Of a DNA stretch of 64,000 nt, positions 3,543 to 62,243 are shown piece by piece (within the stretch, counting starts at the first letter, position 1; each line of letters begins with the position of its first letter). The notes under the pieces are model-generated. The model saw only the letters and a program-made list of their open reading frames with translations. It did not search any database and was not told where the DNA came from. Origin of the DNA: a virus; IMG/VR virus record IMGVR_UViG_3300028536_000014, positions 62,001 to 126,000 of that record; one strand, written 5' to 3'. Position numbers and translations under genes: made by a program.

Positions 3543-4505
3543 TTAAATGATCAAACTATCTTCGTCACGTGTTACAAAGTATTCCAGAATACCCGTTCGT
3601 AATGTCGGATTTGCATCTGTGAATTCAATCAACCCATCTTCTCGATAATAGATATCTCGAGAAACCACATATTCAGCATCAATCAAATAACTGTTTCGAG
3701 TACGATAACCTCGAGCAGAACGACGACCGTGCCAATAATGCAAAATAAGTCCGGGAACATAACTCACTTGACCACCGACTTTTTCCAGTGCGTTAGCTTG
3801 CCAAGCATAGAGTTTTTCCTGATATTCAGGAAGTGCTTCTTCTGCCGGAATTACGATCTTACTACCTTTCTTTTCAAGTTCTTTAAAGATCGAATCTCCT
3901 AAATATCCGAAGAATGAACTGGCCATAAAAAAGTCTGCGCTTCCAAGAATAGGGAAGTCAGGAATACCACCCATGAGATCATACGCTTCACGAGTAAATG
4001 CCCACGCAAATCCTGGTGCTCCAACACTACCGTAAGATTTGCCAGGCACATACATGCCATTCAGAACCCTGTAGGTAAAGCTAGGTCCCTTAGTAGGTGT
4101 ACATGAACAATCAGGTAACAGATCTTGTACTTCTGAGAAAGTCTGAACAACTGGGAATTGTTTTAACTTCTCGATGATTTTGGTTGCAAAATTAGGATCG
4201 GCATAAATGATATCAGCATCTGTAGGAGAGAGATATTTACATCCTTTTGGAAGTCGTTTGATAACCATGTTAATTAAATTTTCTTTATGCCAAAGAATGT
4301 CGTTAGTACGGAATTGGAAATGATAAGGATTATCAGATTGCGTAATTGCAAATTCTTGATCACCTATTGCAAGTTCTGCTGTCCATAATACAACATTGAT
4401 TGCGTTCTTCATATATCGCTCAAATTGTCGATATAATTGATAACGCGATTTGAAATTTAAAGGATTAGAGATAACAGCAATCACGTGCAGTTTATCGTGA
4501 CTCAT
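3543..4505 (-). CDS. GT-A type glycosyltransferase
   Basis: 320 aa from ATG 4505 (MSHDKLHVIAVISNP), chosen because CCGGGAA sits 6 bases upstream. An 18-codon upstream extension lacks a site. The N-terminus is a nucleotide-sugar-binding-like fold. LSPTDADIIYADPNF supplies a DxD metal-binding motif, GAPGFAWAFTREAYDLMGG resembles the GT-A acceptor region, and LILHYWHGRRSARGY carries a late His. It probably moves a sugar onto phage DNA, virion protein or a host glycan. Donor and acceptor cannot be read. Monocistronic between hairpins. Confidence 0.75.
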   Translation of the reverse strand: MSHDKLHVIAVISNPLNFKSRYQLYRQFERYMKNAINVVLWTAELAIGDQEFAITQSDNPYHFQFRTNDILWHKENLINMVIKRLPKGCKYLSPTDADIIYADPNFATKIIEKLKQFPVVQTFSEVQDLLPDCSCTPTKGPSFTYRVLNGMYVPGKSYGSVGAPGFAWAFTREAYDLMGGIPDFPILGSADFFMASSFFGYLGDSIFKELEKKGSKIVIPAEEALPEYQEKLYAWQANALEKVGGQVSYVPGLILHYWHGRRSARGYRTRNSYLIDAEYVVSRDIYYREDGLIEFTDANPTLRTGILEYFVTRDEDSLII

Positions 4506-4593
4506 GAATAGTTCCCGGATAATAAACGAGTTGGAGGAGATAGTTTGCAGCCATAACATTTTACCCCCAATATAAAAAGATTACAAAATTTAT

Positions 4594-4638
4594 AGATCAC
4601 ATCCACAGACCTTTTATTGAGGTCTGTGGATGTGATCT
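4594..4638 (-). terminator. Terminator hairpin, 19-bp stem
   Basis: A perfect 19-bp inverted repeat with a 7-nt loop immediately after the stop of the small gene at 4642. Confidence 0.75.
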
Positions 4639-4641
4639 GAA

Positions 4642-4989
4642 TTATAGAATAACTTTATGAGATTTCTGTAAAATGACATACCAATGATCTTCCGATAATT
4701 CATTGTTGACGTATGCCATATATAGAGAATTAGAACATTGTCCGCAAGATCCTCCACATAAAGAACAAACAACCTCATTACCTTTCCATTTATAATCATT
4801 ACGAAGATGTACTTCTAAATCAACACCACCGTATTTAACGATAGCGGGTTTAATCTTATTTTGTTGTAAAATTGACACATATTTATTCTGTATAACCGTT
4901 TGTGTCAATTTATTTCTAAGTAGTTTTTTCTTCCATTCAACTAGTGTGGTAAAAATACCATCTGTTATTGATGTTTCATTTATCGCGGC
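4642..4989 (-). pseudogene. C-terminal part of a small gene truncated by the tnpB element
   Basis: The frame is open from about 4989 (DAAINETSITDGIF) to the stop at 4642 but has no ATG near the beginning. The only early start is a TTG at 4908 without a Shine-Dalgarno. The open frame begins right where the element's right-end repeat (4990-5000) ends. The protein carries two CxxC pairs (VVCSLCGGSCGQCSN), a possible zinc or redox site. I infer the original N-terminus lies on the far side of the insertion. Confidence 0.55.
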
Positions 4990-5000
4990 ATCTCACTGGT

Positions 5001-5146
5001 GATACTGAATAAGTTCTGTCCTGACTCTTATTCAATATCATTGTAAGTTCCTGCTTCGCAGAGAGCGCTTTCATGATGACAAGACTGACCTCTCTCCACA
5101 GGCTTCAACATTCGGCGTGCCTCGCCGTAGTGTGAAACTATAACAC
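5001..5146 (-). ncRNA. Candidate TnpB guide (omega) RNA region
   Basis: Directly downstream of tnpB lies a conserved-looking non-coding tail containing GAAGCCTGTGGAGAG and GCGAAGCAGGAACTT, typical of the scaffold 3' of IS605-type tnpB genes. It ends in the right-end hairpin. In characterised TnpB systems the omega RNA comes from this strand and region, with the guide copied from flanking DNA beyond the right end (below about 4990). Boundaries are inferred. Confidence 0.55.
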
Positions 5147-6325
5147 TTAGCGTTTGTTATTCGCTAAGAGCACGATACCTTTCGGTTCGTTCGCATTGTG
5201 ATAGGCTATCGCCGCTTCATCTCGGATGTTTATAGCAGCATTAACATCTCGATCATGGGTTTGATGACAGTGAGGACAGGTCCAAGTTCTTTCTGACAAC
5301 TTTAACTTACGATCAAGACGTTGTTGACAACTGCTACAAATATGACTTGAAGGGTAATAAGCATCCATAACGACTACAGAACAATGTCCAGATTCCTGGG
5401 CTTTATAGATCACGAAGGTCTTAAAGGTAGACCACGCTGCGTCTGAGATGTGTTTCGCTAATCGATAGTTTTTGACCATATTACTAGGCACAAGCGCTTC
5501 GAGTCCGATGACTTGGTTTTCGTCGACGAGGATTCGAGAGAGTTTGTGTAGATGGTCTTGACGTGCGTTAGCGATATGTTGGTGTATGGTAGAGACTTTA
5601 AGACAGGCTTTCTTGCGGTTATGGCTACCTTTGACTTTACGAGCTAAGGATTGTTGAGCCCGTTTAAGCTTTAAAGCGTATTTTTTAGTATGATGAGGGT
5701 TATCGATCTTGGTACCGTCTGAGAAAGTAAATAGAGACGTTAGACCTGCATCGATACCCGTAATTTTAGTACCTTTAGTAATATTAAATTCGTATTCACA
5801 AATAAAACAAACATAATACTTACCACTAGCTCTTTTAATTATAGTTAAAGAAGAAGGAGCTGATGGAAGTTCACGGTGCCATTCAATTTTAATAGGGTTA
5901 TCACATTTCGCTATGGTGAATTGACCATTTCTTATTTGAAAACCATCTCTCATTAAAGAGAATGTTTGTCGACCTTCTTTCTTTTTAAACCTAGGATACC
6001 CAATCCTCCGTCGGAAGAAATTAGAATAGGCTGTACCAAGATGTAACATCTCTTGCTGAAGGGCTGTAGCGATAGCTTCTTTTAACCATTCACAAATTGG
6101 GTCTGCTTTATAAATAGGAAGTCGTTTAACAAAATCATACCCGGTGGAGATAGGACGAGAAAGGTTAATAACCCCTTGTTCTTTTAAAGCTAGCCAGTTT
6201 TCATATTCTAGTTTAGCTTCTGATAATCCTCGATTAAAGACATATCGACAACATCCGAAGTTCTTAGCCAAGAATTCTTTCTGACTATCTGTAGGATATA
6301 TCCGAAAACAATAACCTTTTTTCAT
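5147..6325 (-). CDS. tnpB: TnpB RNA-guided nuclease
   Basis: 392 aa from MKKGYCFRIYPT, the usual TnpB start; an 11-codon upstream extension is less likely. RuvC residues are all present: Asp in GIDAGLTSLF (~192), Glu in IGLEAL (~276) and Asp in HDRDVNAAINI (~360). A CSSC...CPHC zinc ribbon precedes the last. The arginine/lysine-rich region NFFRRRIGYPRFKKKEGRQTF is typical. Length is normal for the family and no frameshift is visible, so it looks active. TnpB cuts DNA next to a short TAM, using omega RNA as guide. Confidence 0.93.
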   Translation of the reverse strand: MKKGYCFRIYPTDSQKEFLAKNFGCCRYVFNRGLSEAKLEYENWLALKEQGVINLSRPISTGYDFVKRLPIYKADPICEWLKEAIATALQQEMLHLGTAYSNFFRRRIGYPRFKKKEGRQTFSLMRDGFQIRNGQFTIAKCDNPIKIEWHRELPSAPSSLTIIKRASGKYYVCFICEYEFNITKGTKITGIDAGLTSLFTFSDGTKIDNPHHTKKYALKLKRAQQSLARKVKGSHNRKKACLKVSTIHQHIANARQDHLHKLSRILVDENQVIGLEALVPSNMVKNYRLAKHISDAAWSTFKTFVIYKAQESGHCSVVVMDAYYPSSHICSSCQQRLDRKLKLSERTWTCPHCHQTHDRDVNAAINIRDEAAIAYHNANEPKGIVLLANNKR

Positions 6326-12643: not shown

Positions 12644-14150
12644 ATGCCACATGCAATATTGGTTTCAACTCCCTTTGAGCGCGATGCTCTCTGCAGAGTT
12701 CCACCATCGAAAGTGTACGAACACTCTCTCTTTCTGCTTTTTCAGCGTGCGGTTAATACACAAGTTAGGACTAGTTGGTTTTGAGTGCCGTAACACTCAC
12801 CTAGGTAGTCCTTGCTGGCTTATGCCAGTAGCCGCGTAACAAACAACACGGGTTTACAAATTATGACCCATATCGTTACGCGGCTATTCGGAGCCTAACG
12901 TCTTCATGTGAGGTATCTCCTCTTGTTGGCAGGTCAAAAGACTTCTCGTAAGAAGCCTGAACATGATGTCGGTGGCGAAAGGTAAGCGGTACCCTCGCAA
13001 CCTGTGACATCACACCTTTCTTACAACGTTTGCCCGAACGAGCTTATGGATTCTCCCCATCTGGCTCGGTGATCTTTCGATCTATTGCCGAAACAGTTCG
13101 GCATAACAACACGGCGGGCAGGTGCTCCTTAACGCCTTTCGGCATACCCTATCTCGAAAGATAGATCAGTCATTCAAGAACAAGAGCGGATCCTTGAATC
13201 AAGACGTAGTGATCGCCGATACCTCGGAGTATCGGTTTAGTTACCGTTAACGTCATACTACCATGCTAAGATCAGTGAAGGATGCTATTTCAAGGACGAC
13301 TCCACCGTAATTGGCATCACGGCTTCAAAGTCTCGCATCTATCCTACACATCAAAGATCCGTTAAAGTTTCAACAGTACTAAACTAAACCGCGTGAAAGA
13401 AAACACGGGGCGTAACACCGCACCGAAAGAGGGTGAGTATGTTCGTATAGCCCCAGATCATGATCCGCATTCTGTTACCCCAGTCACGTAGGTTAGAGAA
13501 TAACACGAATCACGATTGTTTTCTTTTGTTTAGCGTTCCTGCTAACGATTGCATTGGGTTAGTCCCACGTCCACATTCTGGATGCTCATTTCCAGACTCA
13601 GTTTTCGATGGAGCTTTGGTAACATTCTTTTCGTTGACCTTACCATTTTGATAAGGCTAGAAGTAATAGCGACTTCAAAGAACATGTCTATTGATCAGTG
13701 TATCAAGCACAGACCGTTACGTTGGTCTGTGTTGAATCCCGCTCCAGTTTCCCGGCTACGGCTTCTCCCGTCGATGTTCACTTTTACGAAAAGAATTCAT
13801 TGCTTGGTATAAAGCTTGATGGTAATGGCTTCGCCAGTGTTTATACCACCTGCGCATGGACGATCTCTCCTCCACGACTCACCATTGTTACGAGGCATGC
13901 ATTTGCCCAACACCATTCTGCATTTACCAACCAATACATATATCTGACTTTTTTGATCAGATTAAACGATAATACAAGCACTCCATTAAGCACTCGCGTA
14001 GTGCTCAACAGGCTGCTTCCTCAGACGTAAATAGATCACAAGGTCTACATATCTGAATAGACAACTTGACTAGTCGTGGCCACAACCAATCCGTAGGGTT
14101 TGAATAGTTTCGAATGCCTTCGCTACTACCCCTTCGCAAATCACCCTTAG
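12644..14150 (-). ncRNA. Long structured non-coding block (~1.5 kb) between hammerhead ribozyme and RNA motif
   Basis: No credible CDS. Many strong hairpins, including a 12-bp perfect stem at 12829-12840/12875-12886, CTGGC/GCCAG near 12820 and palindromic arms at 13090-13240. It starts exactly 3' of the hammerhead ribozyme cleavage site and ends at RNA motif copy 2. I infer a large minus-strand structured RNA whose 5' end is made by self-cleavage. A relation to GOLLD/ROOL cannot be confirmed by eye. Confidence 0.45.
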
Positions 14151-14211
14151 CTGTTATACTTATTTTAATGTTAAAATAAGTTTCGTCCCTTAAAGGACTC
14201 GTCAGTAACAG
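14151..14211 (-). ncRNA. Type I hammerhead ribozyme
   Basis: On the minus strand: stem I CTGTTA, core CTGACGA, stem II GTCC/GGAC with loop TTTAAG, core GAA plus A15.1, stem III CTTATTTTA/TAAAATAAG with a 4-nt loop, U16.1, A17, then stem I TAACAG. All invariant core bases and all three helices are present. Predicted cleavage is 3' of A17, between 14157 and 14156. It lies 15 nt after the CCA of tRNA-Thr, so cleavage would separate the tRNA from the large downstream RNA. Confidence 0.93.
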
Positions 14212-14225
14212 TTTTATTCTACAAA

Positions 14226-14301
14226 TGGTGCCCCTGTCTGGTACCGAGCCAGATTCCCTGGCTTACAAAGCCAGACCTCATCCATTAAAGGCTTCAGGGG
14301 C
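14226..14301 (-). tRNA. tRNA-Thr(UGU)
   Basis: GCCCCTG/CAGGGGC acceptor with A73 and encoded CCA, anticodon arm CTGGC-TTTGTAA-GCCAG, and T stem TCTGG/CCAGA with the unusual loop CTCGGTA instead of TTCRANT. Otherwise complete. Confidence 0.85.
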
Positions 14302-15012: not shown

Positions 15013-15062
15013 TGGTCCCCGGAGCCGGAATCGAACCGGCACGCCTTACAGCGAGGGATTTT
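15013..15062 (-). tRNA. tRNA-Leu(UAA) 3' exon
   Basis: Sequence AAAATCCCT, then a class II variable arm (CGC...GCG), T arm GCCGG-TTCGATT-CCGGC, acceptor TCCGGGG, A73 and encoded CCA. This is the 3' half of a tRNA-Leu(UAA) beginning at anticodon position 35. It is preceded by an intron-terminal G, so the junction matches the U34/A35 site of cyanobacterial tRNA-Leu introns. Confidence 0.8.
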
Positions 15063-15706
15063 CTTACCACTATAGCTTTCGCTACCATTAAGAAGTATTC
15101 AGCCTTCACTCTTATAGAGTTATTAACTCAGAGCTATTCCTTACTAACTTCTACATGTTTGTGGTCTGGACTGTACCTTAACCTTAGTTCCAACAGAACT
15201 TTTGATGACTCAGCTACACGGTTTCCCGGCTTTTTATCGAAGTTACTTCGCTAGTCAAAGAAATGCTAATTACTAGAATTAGATCATCGCAATGAAAACT
15301 TTAGGTTGTTGCCTACCAGTCTCTACACGTTTTCTTCTCAAGAACAGTCTGTGGAGATCTAATGTTCTATCCCGGTATCATTACTCCCCAACCATTTCTG
15401 GTCACCGGCTCACATCTACCATACGGTAGCTATTGAAGAATTTCGCTCGGTATTAGCATATGAACTGCAACAGACAACTCACTTAGCTTTCACCGACTTT
15501 GACAACATTCACCCTAGCCCTTACCCCGTTGATATTATCTCTGGACGATGATATCTCTATCACCTATTTATAATGGATGCTAGTTTATACGTCTTTCGAT
15601 TGAGTTGTTTCATGAGGGTAGTGAGAGCTTCAACTCACATAAGCTTTTATTCTTCCAACTCTGTTTTACCAACTCATTTTTCGTAGGTGCTCAAATTAAA
15701 GTACTT
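15063..15706 (-). other. Group I intron in tRNA-Leu(UAA)
   Basis: 644 nt. P1: exon ...GGAACTT pairs with GAGCACC through the U.G splice-site wobble, as in the Anabaena tRNA-Leu intron. P2: GAGTTG/CAACTC. P3: TGTTGTC/GGCAACA. P4: TCGGT/ACCGA. P7: GAGACTG/CAGTCC. A terminal GTAGCGAAAGCTA hairpin just before the omega G is almost identical to that of the Anabaena intron. No ORF inside. It shares P2, P3, P7 and P9 sequences with the intron at 36.6-37.4 kb. Confidence 0.88.
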
Positions 15707-15833: not shown

Positions 15834-16676
15834 TCAGAGATAACTGTATTCTAAATCAGCTATCTTTGCAAAACCTTTTCTTCTTACTTGGTGATTAACA
15901 GCATCGTAACTATGACCGGTTTCTTTGATAGCTTCAGTTAAAGAATTATATATCGTTACTAACTTCCTCACGATATCTTTAACACAAACTATTTTGCGAT
16001 ACCCACCAGTTCTATGACCGTTAACAATATTTCCTTCACCAAGCTGTGTCATTTTCTTAAGATCAAGAATTGGCCACGGATTTCCATCAGCATATTTAAA
16101 CGCGTGATAATCAACGTGATAACCAAAGTTAAGACCTTTTCTTAAACATTTAGAAACTGTTGCTGGATGAACTTCAAATCTTTCGGAGAATTCTCTCAAC
16201 GAATACATAAGAAATTCTCTTGGTTCTAAACCAAGATATTTAACTGCGATAGGTTTGTTATCGCTCATAAATCCAGACAATCGTGCATGTTCTACATTCT
16301 CTTTTCCAGTACACCATTCAAGGTTATCTGGAAGATTATGTAGTTGATTTCCATCACAATGATTAACTTCTAAATTACTAAAAGATTTATCTAGATGTCT
16401 AGATGGTCGACCAATGAAAGTTTTTGCTATCAATCGACTAAATTTATGACATACAGGTTTTTTGCCAGGGCTTGTTATAATTACACCTACCGTACCATTA
16501 CCAGAAAGTTGTGGTTTTAACAAGTTACCTGTATGTATGTTTACTATTTTTCCATCTCGACTAACACCAAGTCTTTTGTCATCAGGAAAGTAAAAGAAGT
16601 TATCGAAACCGAGTACCGGTTCAGGATGAACTTCTTCCAAATCAGAAGGATCATTCATCCTTACTACGGCACTCAT
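15834..16676 (-). CDS. HNH homing-type endonuclease
   Basis: 280 aa from ATG 16676 (MSAVVRMNDPSDLEEV), with CAGGAG upstream; a TTG-started form is seven codons longer. The N-terminus GVSRDGKIVNIHTGNLLKPQ is a NUMOD4-like DNA-binding repeat. LEVNHCDGNQLHNLPDNLEWCTGKENVEHA is the HNH core. The C-terminus has helix-turn-helix-like (FSERFEVHPATVSKCL) and NUMOD-like segments. Freestanding, immediately upstream of the intron-bearing tRNA-Leu, so it may mobilise this RNA island. Confidence 0.88.
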   Translation of the reverse strand: MSAVVRMNDPSDLEEVHPEPVLGFDNFFYFPDDKRLGVSRDGKIVNIHTGNLLKPQLSGNGTVGVIITSPGKKPVCHKFSRLIAKTFIGRPSRHLDKSFSNLEVNHCDGNQLHNLPDNLEWCTGKENVEHARLSGFMSDNKPIAVKYLGLEPREFLMYSLREFSERFEVHPATVSKCLRKGLNFGYHVDYHAFKYADGNPWPILDLKKMTQLGEGNIVNGHRTGGYRKIVCVKDIVRKLVTIYNSLTEAIKETGHSYDAVNHQVRRKGFAKIADLEYSYL

Positions 16677-16750
16677 ATCAAGACTCCTGTTGTTCAAAAT
16701 GTGTATTCCAGTTCCACCACGCTTCCACAGTCGTGTGACACATTATTGCA

Positions 16751-48329: not shown

Positions 48330-49607
48330 TTAAGCTGAGATGAACCCAACTTGCTTTTTCGATTTCGTGTGAATGTTATTCACACTTTCGTAGTTCAATG
48401 CTTCAGCCAGAGTCAAATTACCTACGATATGGTGATCTTCCGGAAGCTCTGATAGACCGATCGCCAATCGTGCCGTACTGGCCTCAGCAACTGTCAGTTT
48501 CCTGAAATTGATCACCATGAAGGTACGACCAGAACGAATCAGCGCTTCGTCGACCTGATTCACATTCGGGAGATTGGTCGAGATAATCAACTTCCGACGT
48601 GTCTTGATGATACCATCCGACATATTGAGAAGTGCTGACATCTTGCTATTACCATTTTGTCGACAGCCAATGTAATTATCGGCATCTTCAAGGGTAACTA
48701 AAGTTCCATCACCGAAATCACCGATCCAATTGCTAATGTTAGGTGATTCCAATGCATTCTGATCATTACAAATTCCGAAATGTTCAAATTCGCATTCCAG
48801 CATGATCGTGCGAGATAAGGTTGACTTGCCAGTACCTGGAGGACCAACCAGAAGTAGGATGTTCTGCTTGGAAGCCATGAAATCTTTAACCAGTTTCTTA
48901 ATACCATCAGTGATAAACGGATAGAAACTATCATGACCAACGTCAGCACCTTCAGATTCGATCGTACGATCGATAACCTTGAAAGTTCCATCGTTAGCAA
49001 CACCGGTTAGGATATGAACCTTCTTGATGCTTGGAGCTTGGAACCGTTCTAGGAAATGCTTTTCCCAACGCTTTACTTTATCGTGGTCACCGCACACCAC
49101 GATCGAGTAAGCTTCTTTGATATTGTAATGTGTCAAATGAATGACTAGATCAGGAATGTTGGGATTGGCTTCATCAACGATATAACCGCGCCAAACCAGA
49201 TTGGAAAAGAACTGGGTTTTGAAATTATACTCTTTGAAAAGAGCCATGAAGGTTTCGATCTTCATGTTTTCAGAACCGATGATATTGTAAATGAATGTAC
49301 CAGTATTCAGACCATGAGCGGCACGATAAGCCCAGACATATTCCACAAACCGTGTAGTATCGACATCCATCGACACCATGATTTCGGGTAAATTCTCGAT
49401 GAACGGTTTTCGAAATAGTTCAATTTCACCTTTATTGGTGAAATGCATTTCGCTATCCCACATTAATCTCAGTCCATCTTTCTGAAACTTATGATCGTTA
49501 TTTTTCAGAACCTTTTTGCTGTTATTGAAATAATACAGCAAACAAGCAACAAAAAGAATCGAGACAACAATGCTGATGGCCCAAATCGTTAGATTCATAG
49601 TAATCAT
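48330..49607 (-). CDS. Membrane-anchored BCS1-like AAA+ ATPase
   Basis: 425 aa. One N-terminal membrane segment (~6-27), a sensor/BCS1_N-like domain (~60-190), then an AAA+ module: Walker A LLVGPPGTGKST (~254-262), Walker B GTLVTLEDAD (~303-310), sensor 1 IISTN (~341-345) and arginine finger LIRSGR (~356-361). BCS1 relatives translocate folded proteins or act in bacterial defence. Here it may remodel or move proteins at the membrane or phage nucleus (inference). Start overlaps the upstream gene by 4 bases. Confidence 0.85.
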   Translation of the reverse strand: MITMNLTIWAISIVVSILFVACLLYYFNNSKKVLKNNDHKFQKDGLRLMWDSEMHFTNKGEIELFRKPFIENLPEIMVSMDVDTTRFVEYVWAYRAAHGLNTGTFIYNIIGSENMKIETFMALFKEYNFKTQFFSNLVWRGYIVDEANPNIPDLVIHLTHYNIKEAYSIVVCGDHDKVKRWEKHFLERFQAPSIKKVHILTGVANDGTFKVIDRTIESEGADVGHDSFYPFITDGIKKLVKDFMASKQNILLLVGPPGTGKSTLSRTIMLECEFEHFGICNDQNALESPNISNWIGDFGDGTLVTLEDADNYIGCRQNGNSKMSALLNMSDGIIKTRRKLIISTNLPNVNQVDEALIRSGRTFMVINFRKLTVAEASTARLAIGLSELPEDHHIVGNLTLAEALNYESVNNIHTKSKKQVGFISA

Positions 49608-50035
49608 TTCTTCTTAGTGGTTGAAATTTTGGTTTCTTTTAGGAAATGCTTTTCCCAATAGGAAACACATGTTGGATCTCCAAAGATTACAATCGTGTAA
49701 GGTTCAGTAGGGTTATAGTGAGTCAAATGAATGATCAGATGTGGAACGTCGTCTGGATCTGTTTCATCAACGATATAACCGCGCCAGACCTTGTTAGATA
49801 AGAACTGGGTTTTGAAATTATACTCTTTAAAGAGTTCAATGATGGACTTGATTGTCACATTGTTAGAGAGATCGATCTCATGTTGGAATAATTTCGTATT
49901 CAAACCACGAGTGGCACGATAAGCCCAGACGTACTCTGTAAATCGACTTGTATCGATATCCATCGTAATAACGATAGCTGGGAGGGTGTCCAAGAATGGT
50001 TTATTGTGTACTTCCAAAAAGTCATTGGAATTCAT
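49604..50035 (-). CDS. Stand-alone copy of the AAA protein's sensor domain
   Basis: 143 aa with AAGGAG upstream. KPFLDTLPAIVITMDIDTSRF, TEYVWAYRATRGLNT, FKEYNFKTQFLSNKVWRGYI and LIIHLTHYNPTEPYTIVIFG align almost residue by residue with ~66-190 of the 48330 protein. It has no membrane segment and no ATPase. A tandem duplication that kept only the N-terminal domain; likely an adaptor or regulator of the ATPase, translated in coupling with it. Confidence 0.85.
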   Translation of the reverse strand: MNSNDFLEVHNKPFLDTLPAIVITMDIDTSRFTEYVWAYRATRGLNTKLFQHEIDLSNNVTIKSIIELFKEYNFKTQFLSNKVWRGYIVDETDPDDVPHLIIHLTHYNPTEPYTIVIFGDPTCVSYWEKHFLKETKISTTKKK

Positions 50036-50309: not shown

Positions 50310-50492
50310 TTAATCTTCCTCAGCTAACCAAGTTCCTACTGTTGCTATGATAGGTTTTGGTAAACGGATATTTCCAGATATTCTTAAAGGCTCTTCCATG
50401 TTCCAAATATTAAATTTTGGACTTAAAGAATACCACATATCTGCCATGGCTTCATCCAGAGACAAACACAACGAGCAAGAATCTCCATCAAA
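50310..50492 (-). CDS. RNA polymerase beta-prime N-terminal subunit, exon 2
   Basis: 60 codons after the intron: FDGDSCSLCLSLDEAMAD... to the stop at 50310. With exon 1 it restores NADFDGD, the Mg-binding active-site loop, and continues SLCLSLDEAM as VPLSLEAQ does in bacterial beta-prime. It has no translation start of its own (TTG 50504 belongs to the intron). The spliced protein would be about 473 aa, ending just after the catalytic loop, as split beta-prime subunits of phiKZ-like phages do. Confidence 0.88.
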   Translation of the reverse strand, partial: FDGDSCSLCLSLDEAMADMWYSLSPKFNIWNMEEPLRISGNIRLPKPIIATVGTWLAEED

Positions 50493-50832
50493 CCTTACCT
50501 TCAAGTAGAATCGTTACTTCTACTCCGTGTTGATACACAGCTCTAACTTTCATTAGAAGAGGAGAACATATCACGATCTCTTTCGAGACCCCTTCCATTT
50601 CAGCTCACTTGAGCCTACTCCGCGCTACCGGATGTTCGTTGAACGTTTTTCTGACGGATCAGAAACTTCGCTGCGGATTATCCAATCTTCTTATTTGTTA
50701 CCATACCTGAGTGATTAGTTCAGCCATTGTTATATCACTATAACAACTTGGTATAAGAAGCTCTAAAGGACTTTCCCGACAATTAGAAAGGTGCTATTCA
50801 GATATCACTATCTGAAAGGACTAAAACTGTTA
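50493..50832 (-). other. Group I intron inside the RNA polymerase beta-prime gene
   Basis: 340 nt, no ORF. The splice sites that restore the protein are GCTGAT^TAACAG and GGTAAGG^TTTGATGG: U at the 5' exon end, G at the intron end. Core signs: AATTGTCGGGAAAG (P3-J3/4), ATAATCCGCAGCGAAG (P4/P6-J6/7), GTTCAACGAACATCC (P7 5'), GGAGTAGGCTCAAGTGAGCTGAAA (P7.1/P3-P8-like, as in T4 td) and GTGATATGTTCTCC (P7 3'). P7 pairs GAACAT with ATGTTC in place of the usual GACTA/TAGTC, a compensated change. Confidence 0.92.
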
Positions 50833-52071
50833 ATCAGCGTTCATGCTCGTTGTGATCAAAATACTGACTCCAAATGTCAGATCCTTCGGATCGTTTTTAA
50901 CTCTTGGAATATAAACCTTCTGAATGGAACCTTGAAGCAAAGATGGAAATCGATTAAACAAGACTGGATAACGCCCATCTTTAGTATCAGAGATAATTTC
51001 TTTCAGATATTGATCAAGCAGTGGATGATAAATTTCAGTATGAGATAGAAGAAGTCCCACAGCGTCATTAATCAACATTCCACTTTTCTTGATAAGCTTG
51101 TTAATGAGCATCGGTCTGAAAATCGTTAAACCAACACCCCAAGGTATTTCAATTTCATCATATCGATGTGCGTCTGTTATCGAAGAGATAACAGCTCGTG
51201 CGGAATAATCGAATCGAGATCCACCGATATAATGTCGAAAGAGTCCAGACTTCTTAGCAACGATCGTCTTGAAATAACTGTCATAAAACTTACAGCTAAG
51301 AAGATACATCGCTCTAGCTGTACGATTTTCTTTAACAGAAACTGTTTGATTATGAAAATCTTTATCGATCGATACCAACATTTCGATAGCTTCAAGTGCT
51401 AACGGAACGGTACTGTCGATATAAGTGGCCAGAGATGTTTTCTCGATAACCAAGAGAGACTTATTCAGTAAAGGAATATAATCCGAGAACAAAATATCTT
51501 TCTTAACTGTTAAAAGATCAGCAAGATAATCTCGTCCTATTCCTTTGATTTTAAAATCTTTCAGACTCATCAAGAATTCGATGATCGATTGAAAATTCTG
51601 AACGAAGTAATTATATCCACGTTGAATACCAGCTTGTTCAATTTTATCTACGACATCAGGACGATTGATCTGAGGTGAATATGTTGTATCAGTTAACCAT
51701 CTCAAGATGCTAAATTTTGATTTGCTAAATCGATAATCCAACATAATCCAGATTATTGGTGACATCAATTTCTCAACACCAATAGGTTTTCGAAACCAAA
51801 CCAACGGTTCAATGGTGTTTTCAATCGCTGCACTGACGAGTGTGTCGCAGTGTTCACAAATCGTATTCTTACTGAATTCTCCTTTTGTCATTCCACATCG
51901 ACACGAAGGAAGAATTGTCACCATGTCACTTGAATAAGTTGTGGTGATTAATTGTTCAATACGTTCACGATCTTTCGTGGTAGTGTTAAGCAAGTCGTTT
52001 ATGATAATCGGAGGGTTCTTGAGCCCCTCGAACATCATATTGTTATCGATCAAACTCTGGATAATAGGCAC
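50833..52071 (-). CDS. RNA polymerase beta-prime N-terminal subunit, exon 1
   Basis: 413 codons from ATG 52071 (MPIIQSLIDNNMMFEGL). Zinc ribbon LPSCRCGMTKGEFSKNTICEHC (~58-79); GGSRFDYSARAVISS matches beta-prime GKRVDYSGRSVI; VLFNRFPSLLQGSIQ matches VLLNRAPTLHRLGIQ. The exon ends SMNAD and is followed by an intron-encoded stop. It is one piece of a multisubunit phage RNA polymerase (phiKZ type); other beta/beta-prime subunits are not in this window. Confidence 0.92.
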
Positions 52072-61782: not shown

Positions 61783-62243
61783 AATGAATTACGGATTTTG
61801 TTATGATGAGTTGCAGTCATAGGAACATAACTCATCATAATCTCTCTTACCACTACATAATCCATTCCAATGTTCTGTGAGGTATATTGAACATTCATTT
61901 TAATCTCTAATTGTGACCGCATCTTGATGTAAAGATTTAATAAACTCTCTTTACATATTTCTGAAAACAGATCTTGTTCGTGACAAAGAATACATTTAAG
62001 GAATTGAGGAATATAGTCTGTTGTATTATCTTTACTTAAATGTTCTATTGCCTCAGCTGGAGGAAGATTAAGCATTCTGATAAGATCGCTCATAACAACA
62101 CGATATACAATGTCAGCAACTGAATCAAAATTGACTTTTTCATCAGTAATCTTACGAACATAGTCACCAATGCTATCGTAAAATCGAATAGATTCAACTC
62201 CCAAGTCAAGGACAATTATTAATCCACCTTCTTGAAGTTCCAT
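61770..62243 (-). CDS. Hypothetical protein, paralogue of 61318
   Basis: 157 aa from ATG 62243 (MELQEGGLIIVLDLG), with GGGAGA upstream, two bases past the previous stop. The longer frame is out-of-context hydrophobic sequence. Function unknown. Confidence 0.7.
   Translation of the reverse strand: MELQEGGLIIVLDLGVESIRFYDSIGDYVRKITDEKVNFDSVADIVYRVVMSDLIRMLNLPPAEAIEHLSKDNTTDYIPQFLKCILCHEQDLFSEICKESLLNLYIKMRSQLEIKMNVQYTSQNIGMDYVVVREIMMSYVPMTATHHNKIRNSLWKH

Follow-up and report, generated by a model that had tools for sequence, protein, structure and literature searches.

The window analysed here comprises 64,000 nt (positions 62001–126000 of the 244,725-base virus record IMGVR_UViG_3300028536_000014) and carries on its minus strand a gene for a phiKZ gp55-type nvRNAP beta′ subunit, divided into two open reading frames by a 340-nt insert (Table 1). 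Exon 1 closes with the codons ATG AAC GCT GAT (MNAD) and runs directly into TAA, an in-frame stop supplied by the first bases of the insert; exon 2 opens with FDGDSCSLCLSLDEAM... and its frame is closed by TAA at 50310. Beyond exon 2, two adjacent ORFs of 143 and 425 aa (48330–50035, minus) resemble each other at their N termini, which suggests a tandem duplication; the larger carries an ATPase motif, GPPGTGKST.

Table 1 Features of the interrupted polymerase locus and its ribozyme, in window coordinates
Feature	Position	Strand	Description
Chimallin (phage nuclear shell), 620 aa	54368..56230	-	PF25677 E=1.7e-24; PHROG 4795 E=2.5e-79
Exon 1	50833..52071	-	ORF with GTG start, 413 codons (aa), ending ...SMNAD; N half of phiKZ gp55-type nvRNAP beta′
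Group I intron, 340 nt, no own ORF	50493..50832	-	Starts TAACAG, ends ...GGTAAGG; RF00028, covariation, junction alignment
P1 (putative)	50819..50835	-	Exon GAU (50835-50833) with internal guide GUC (50821-50819); pairing inferred from sequence
P2 hairpin	50797..50816	-	UUCAGAUA-GUGA-UAUCUGAA
P3 5′ strand	50786..50791	-	CCUUUC; partner GGAAGG 50591-50596
P4 5′ strand, P motif	50775..50782	-	UUGUCGGG; partner Q motif UCCGCA 50672-50677
P6a hairpin	50648..50665	-	UUUCUGA-UCCG-UCAGAAA
P7 5′ strand	50632..50637	-	GAACAU; partner AUGUUC 50564-50569
Two extra hairpins between P7 and P3′	50603..50631	-	CCG..CGG and GCUCA..UGAGC (P7.1/P7.2 position)
P8 hairpin	50575..50590	-	GGUCUC-GAAA-GAGAUC
P9, P9.1 and P9.2 hairpins	50505..50557	-	5′ of the 3′ splice site; sequence fold
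Exon 2	50310..50492	-	FDGDSCSLCL...WLAEED, 60 codons + stop; aligned with intact homologues

Joining AACGCTGAT to TTTGATGGAGAT, which gives GCTGATTTTGATGGAG across the junction, restores NADFDGD without a gap relative to intact homologues. A first-pass annotation made from the letters alone had placed the split between NAD and FDGD and the length of the insert correctly to the base. It had also held that the product lacks FDGD unless splicing occurs, as follows from the stop immediately after exon 1 and the encoding of FDGD in exon 2 only. Shifting the splice point by one T leaves the exon sequence unchanged but deprives the intron of its final G, and this alternative was set aside. Both exons are open and alignable across the 473 codons of the joined protein. 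Adding exon 2 raises the score for Pfam Rpb1 domain 2 from 30.2 bits (exon 1 alone) to 48.2 bits, a gain of 18, and the product of exon 1 matches the PHROG 2987 RNA polymerase beta subunit (E=9e-112). A tblastn comparison to about 300 phage records gave homologues of the polymerase, including an uninterrupted one in FLC9 (40% identity across 99% of the joined protein); those of PhiPA3, Eowyn and Moabite are likewise uninterrupted and align with no gap at the junction. The phiKZ gp55 PDB chain aligns end to end with residues 6–471 (E=5.8e-73), and the joined exons carry the DxDGD motif, placing the product among phiKZ gp55-type nvRNAP beta′ subunits. Elsewhere in the 244.7-kb record there is no uninterrupted DFDGD-coding stretch of DNA, and Rpb1 domain 2 is matched once only, although parts of the genome may be missing from the record and a further polymerase gene might be among them.

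The Rfam search that the first-pass annotation had put forward as a check of its group I reading returned a match to the full RF00028 model (1–253) at 50541–50852 (minus) with 59.5 bits and E=1.4e-12, above the gathering score of 50 and thus far beyond chance. The reading had rested on P3, P4, P7 and a terminal G, all of which are present, and the three helices covary. Across 18 aligned phage introns, 96.6% of P3/P4/P7 cells are paired (98% in P4) and 10 of the 18 pairs are changed on both sides, among them all six pairs of P3. Such two-sided changes number 37 cells, compared with a mean of 8.2 in shuffles, none of 500 of which reached 37. When the partner strands were slid by 1–3 columns, pairing fell to 34–51%, a comparison that somewhat favours the unslid version because the tested structure was derived from the studied intron itself. 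P7 had been singled out early as altered in a compensated way. It reads GAACAU/AUGUUC here, doubly compensated relative to the GACUA/UAGUC of most introns, and others have GGCCA/UGGUC or GAAUAC/GUAUUC; because these variants keep their pairing, the compensation is genuine.

Group I introns require a U at the end of exon 1 and a G at the end of the intron. Both were found in 21 of 21 introns compared (as T in the DNA), with the proviso that the relatives' boundaries were set by us to fit the reading frame and that the T/G rule helped to place some of them. The putative P1 sets the splice-site U opposite G and is extended by UAA/UUA (three intron pairs); with only three exonic pairs it is weak, and no convincing candidate for P10 was found in the intron. 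Folding of the whole insert gives just a modest advantage over shuffled sequence (minimum free energy z-score −1.98), which is no surprise for a ribozyme whose pseudoknots are left out of the score, and the case for a ribozyme is carried by covariation and the covariance model rather than by folding energy. Extra hairpins of the kind seen in subgroup IA introns lie between P7 and P3′, and by this feature we take the intron to be IA-like. Within the 340 nt there is no ORF of endonuclease size, so the intron does not qualify as a mobile (homing) intron as it stands. The AVP1 intron at the same site contains an HNH gene, and the studied intron looks like a former mobile intron whose endonuclease has been lost or accompanied it in trans.

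Other RNA-like elements lie on the minus strand elsewhere in the window. A 90-nt stretch (13270–13359) matches the L1-stalk part of bacterial 23S rRNA (63.6 bits, E=2e-16), is about 75–81% identical to the 23S rRNA sequences found, and is possibly a mimic of the binding site of ribosomal protein L1. A hammerhead-like RAGATH-1 match (14152–14226, 34.8 bits, below gathering) lies directly downstream of a tRNA-Thr gene (14226–14301). A third, weak group I match (15151–15571, 43.3 bits, below gathering) lies downstream of an HNH gene (15834–16697) and a tRNA-Leu gene and is followed by a tRNA-like 3′ half near 15015–15063; this region may be a split tRNA gene.

The polymerase gene is preceded on the same strand by a gene for chimallin (26% identity to phiKZ gp54, E=2e-16), the gp54–gp55 order of phiKZ but for small ORFs in between; the chimallin gene marks the virus as a nucleus-forming phage. 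In such phages transcription is separated from translation (PMC12908238), and this separation would allow a ribozyme to fold ahead of any ribosome. Outside the window, the genome has another group I intron that contains no ORF (record positions 160841–161130; 454 nt from splice to splice); it splits the gene of a vRNAP-type beta subunit just behind AMHDD. The PhiPA3 gp210 intron follows a pair of conserved aspartates, of which the second corresponds to D675 of E. coli RpoB (PMC11620839), and the site of the second intron appears to match that description; if so, both polymerases of the phage depend on splicing.

The first-pass annotation had noted introns in polymerase genes of phiKZ-like phages, and those of phiKZ gp55, Goslar, PA7, EL and others indeed fall in the same seven-codon motif. 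With boundaries worked out in the relatives, about nine or ten insertion points lie within about 30 bases, in or beside NADFDGD: before N (LucasX and the first intron of IMG/VR contig L134, at two different bases), at N|A (phiKZ, KpGz_1), A|D (EL, Salmonella phage 1252) and D|F (the studied phage, L131, the second intron of L134, PDCC-1, AVP1), inside F (first intron of Goslar), at D|G (Yong MS32) and G|D (BUCT660, L108, L128, Miami), after the last D (PS119XW, PA7, fnug, the third intron of L134) and one codon past it (second intron of Goslar). The only other site met was RN|P, some 35–40 codons upstream (fnug, L068, L128). In an even-step sample of close homologues, the matches that stopped early ended near query 363 or 410–418, the same two places. 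Relatives were picked for inspection because their matches broke at the loop, so the count of insertion points is not an unbiased survey. In scans of viral contigs, one of which used the intact motif as its search pattern, the motif was whole at about 100 loci, some of them counted in more than one scan, and split at only a handful, so the intron-free state is the usual one in the contigs scanned. Single-protein scans of viral and genome collections gave no close relative; relatives were found with alignment queries.

Some genes hold several introns in the loop. Contig L134 (IMGVR_UViG_3300037323_000212, 4630–5860) has three group I introns in an nvRNAP beta′ gene (83.6, 58.6 and 64.5 bits by Rfam), separated by micro-exons of 11 nt (TCAACGCTGAT) and 12 nt (TTCGATGGTGAT). 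In Goslar (4140–6000), the loop appears, as judged from inferred boundaries, to have two group I introns on either side of a 13-nt exon, CGACGGTGACGCT; the first of the two contains a NUMOD1/HNH gene. The guide changes from site to site, being GCCGUC at G|D and GUCUCC at NADFDGD|, so that each intron suits its own exon. The loop is a striking intron hotspot, and the hotspot with its micro-exons is of more interest than the single intron.

A tree built from 26 cores over 252 columns places the studied intron with those of MT835481, VRE9_1 nrdD, PhiPA3 near gp085, VCO139 and L108 (support 82/87), and the first intron of Goslar forms the adjoining branch (90/76). Common descent of the five NAD|FDGD introns was rejected (AU test on the 252-column core alignment, p-AU 1.5e-7). 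This speaks for introns having reached that base more than once, within the bounds set by short cores and possible recombination.

Retention of the intron might be explained by protection, a tentative proposal in which an occupied site, having no intact NADFDGD sequence, is shielded from HNH endonucleases that rival phages encode. The vRNAP gene of phiKZ, which has no intron, is nicked by PhiPA3 gp210 (PMC11620839), the NADFDGD-loop introns of phiKZ, AVP1 and Goslar contain HNH genes, and the second ORF-less intron of the same genome sits after HDD in a vRNAP-type beta gene, the PhiPA3 gp210 type of site; however, an ORF-less intron may persist merely because exact loss is rare. A broader reading, which we likewise hold to be possible rather than probable, makes NADFDGD an intron trap, reached repeatedly by different lineages at about nine points, stacking up to three introns around exons of 11–13 nt and keeping ORF-less occupants through endonuclease immunity; with immunity gained by occupying the loop, an essential polymerase would come to depend on ribozymes.

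For the studied locus, we consider the insert almost certainly an ORF-less, subgroup IA-like self-splicing group I intron in the phiKZ gp55-type nvRNAP beta′ gene of a nucleus-forming jumbo phage, and we infer that it splices in infected cells by its own catalysis. On folding of the transcript, the internal guide GUC would pair with the last exon codon, GAU, and a guanosine bound at P7 would cut 3′ of the exon-terminal U, after which the freed 3′ OH of exon 1 would attack behind the terminal G and join the exons. The joined message would encode an uninterrupted NADFDGD, the three aspartates of which would hold the catalytic Mg2+; unspliced mRNA would yield only an inactive fragment, because translation halts at the first intron codon.

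A decayed intron that has lost the ability to splice, belonging to a dead gene or produced by faulty assembly, might be suspected from the short P1 and from a core scoring 59.5 bits compared with 109 for L131 (some relatives score higher); however, the core helices are all complete with P7 doubly compensated, both exons are open and alignable throughout, and the gene is probably one that the phage cannot do without, since plaque formation was strongly affected when phiKZ055 was knocked down (PMC12571901), all of which makes this reading very improbable. Still less credible is an arrangement without splicing, in which each ORF is a gene of its own and the two proteins come together as a split beta′, a reading that we rejected even though phiKZ-like beta and beta′ are divided into several chains (PMC7598289), because it would cut the Mg2+ loop itself whereas the known beta′ split of the family falls after the catalytic barrel domain (PMC7598289), exon 2 has no proper start (just a TTG 12 nt upstream of its first codon), the gap between the ORFs is filled by a complete ribozyme with covariation, and in most homologues the motif is unbroken.

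Under the preferred reading of a self-splicing intron, production of active polymerase is made to depend on a ribozyme that excises itself from the message for the catalytic loop. The wider pattern, in which mobile introns gather again and again in the best-conserved stretch of an essential gene, is testable. It also carries a warning for annotation, as such genes usually appear as truncated or hypothetical pieces; the list of five RNA polymerase genes in the LucasX paper omits both halves of the split one.

Among known systems, the phiKZ gp55 intron is alike in gene, NADFDGD loop, group I core, preceding U and final G. It differs in position (N|ADFDGD, two codons upstream), in size and content (1372 nt with the HNH gene gp56) and in its core, which groups with the second intron of the studied phage (support 97/99) and not with the NAD|FDGD one. 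The phiKZ gp55 PDB chain is named PHIKZ055 + PHIKZ056.1 and contains DFDGD, numbered 417-DFDGD-421 in the structure (PMC8287921). The nvRNAP purified from infected cells contains gp55, listed at 56 kDa (PMC4666361), a figure that may have been calculated; it fits the spliced form (55.7 kDa computed) and not the unspliced one (47.9 kDa). In the portions of these two papers that were searched, the word "intron" is absent. The Goslar record annotates Intron_gpI beside its homologous polymerase gene. The PhiPA3 gp210 intron in vRNAP beta (Birkholz 2024, PMC11620839) is likewise of group I and likewise falls at active-site residues in a multisubunit polymerase of a jumbo phage, but it lies in the other polymerase and another subunit, bears an endonuclease and has been tested experimentally (PMC11620839). 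By sequence the closest cores are those of MT835481 (69% over the core), VRE9_1 nrdD, PhiPA3 near gp085 and VCO139, which occupy other genes in unrelated phages.

As to the NAD|FDGD codon itself, for which the first-pass annotation knew of no described intron, our search, confined largely to open literature, found no paper on one, and that part of the claim stood; in deposited sequences, however, Aeromonas phage AVP1 and Photobacterium phage PDCC-1, as well as the IMG/VR contigs L131 and L134 (the second intron of the latter), have introns at the identical site, with a guide GUC that can pair with exon GAU. They differ in belonging to other ribozyme lineages, and that of AVP1 encodes an HNH protein whereas the studied intron has no ORF. 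The NAD|FDGD intron is thus not the first of its kind, its exact codon being apparently undescribed in the papers available but already occupied in deposited genomes.
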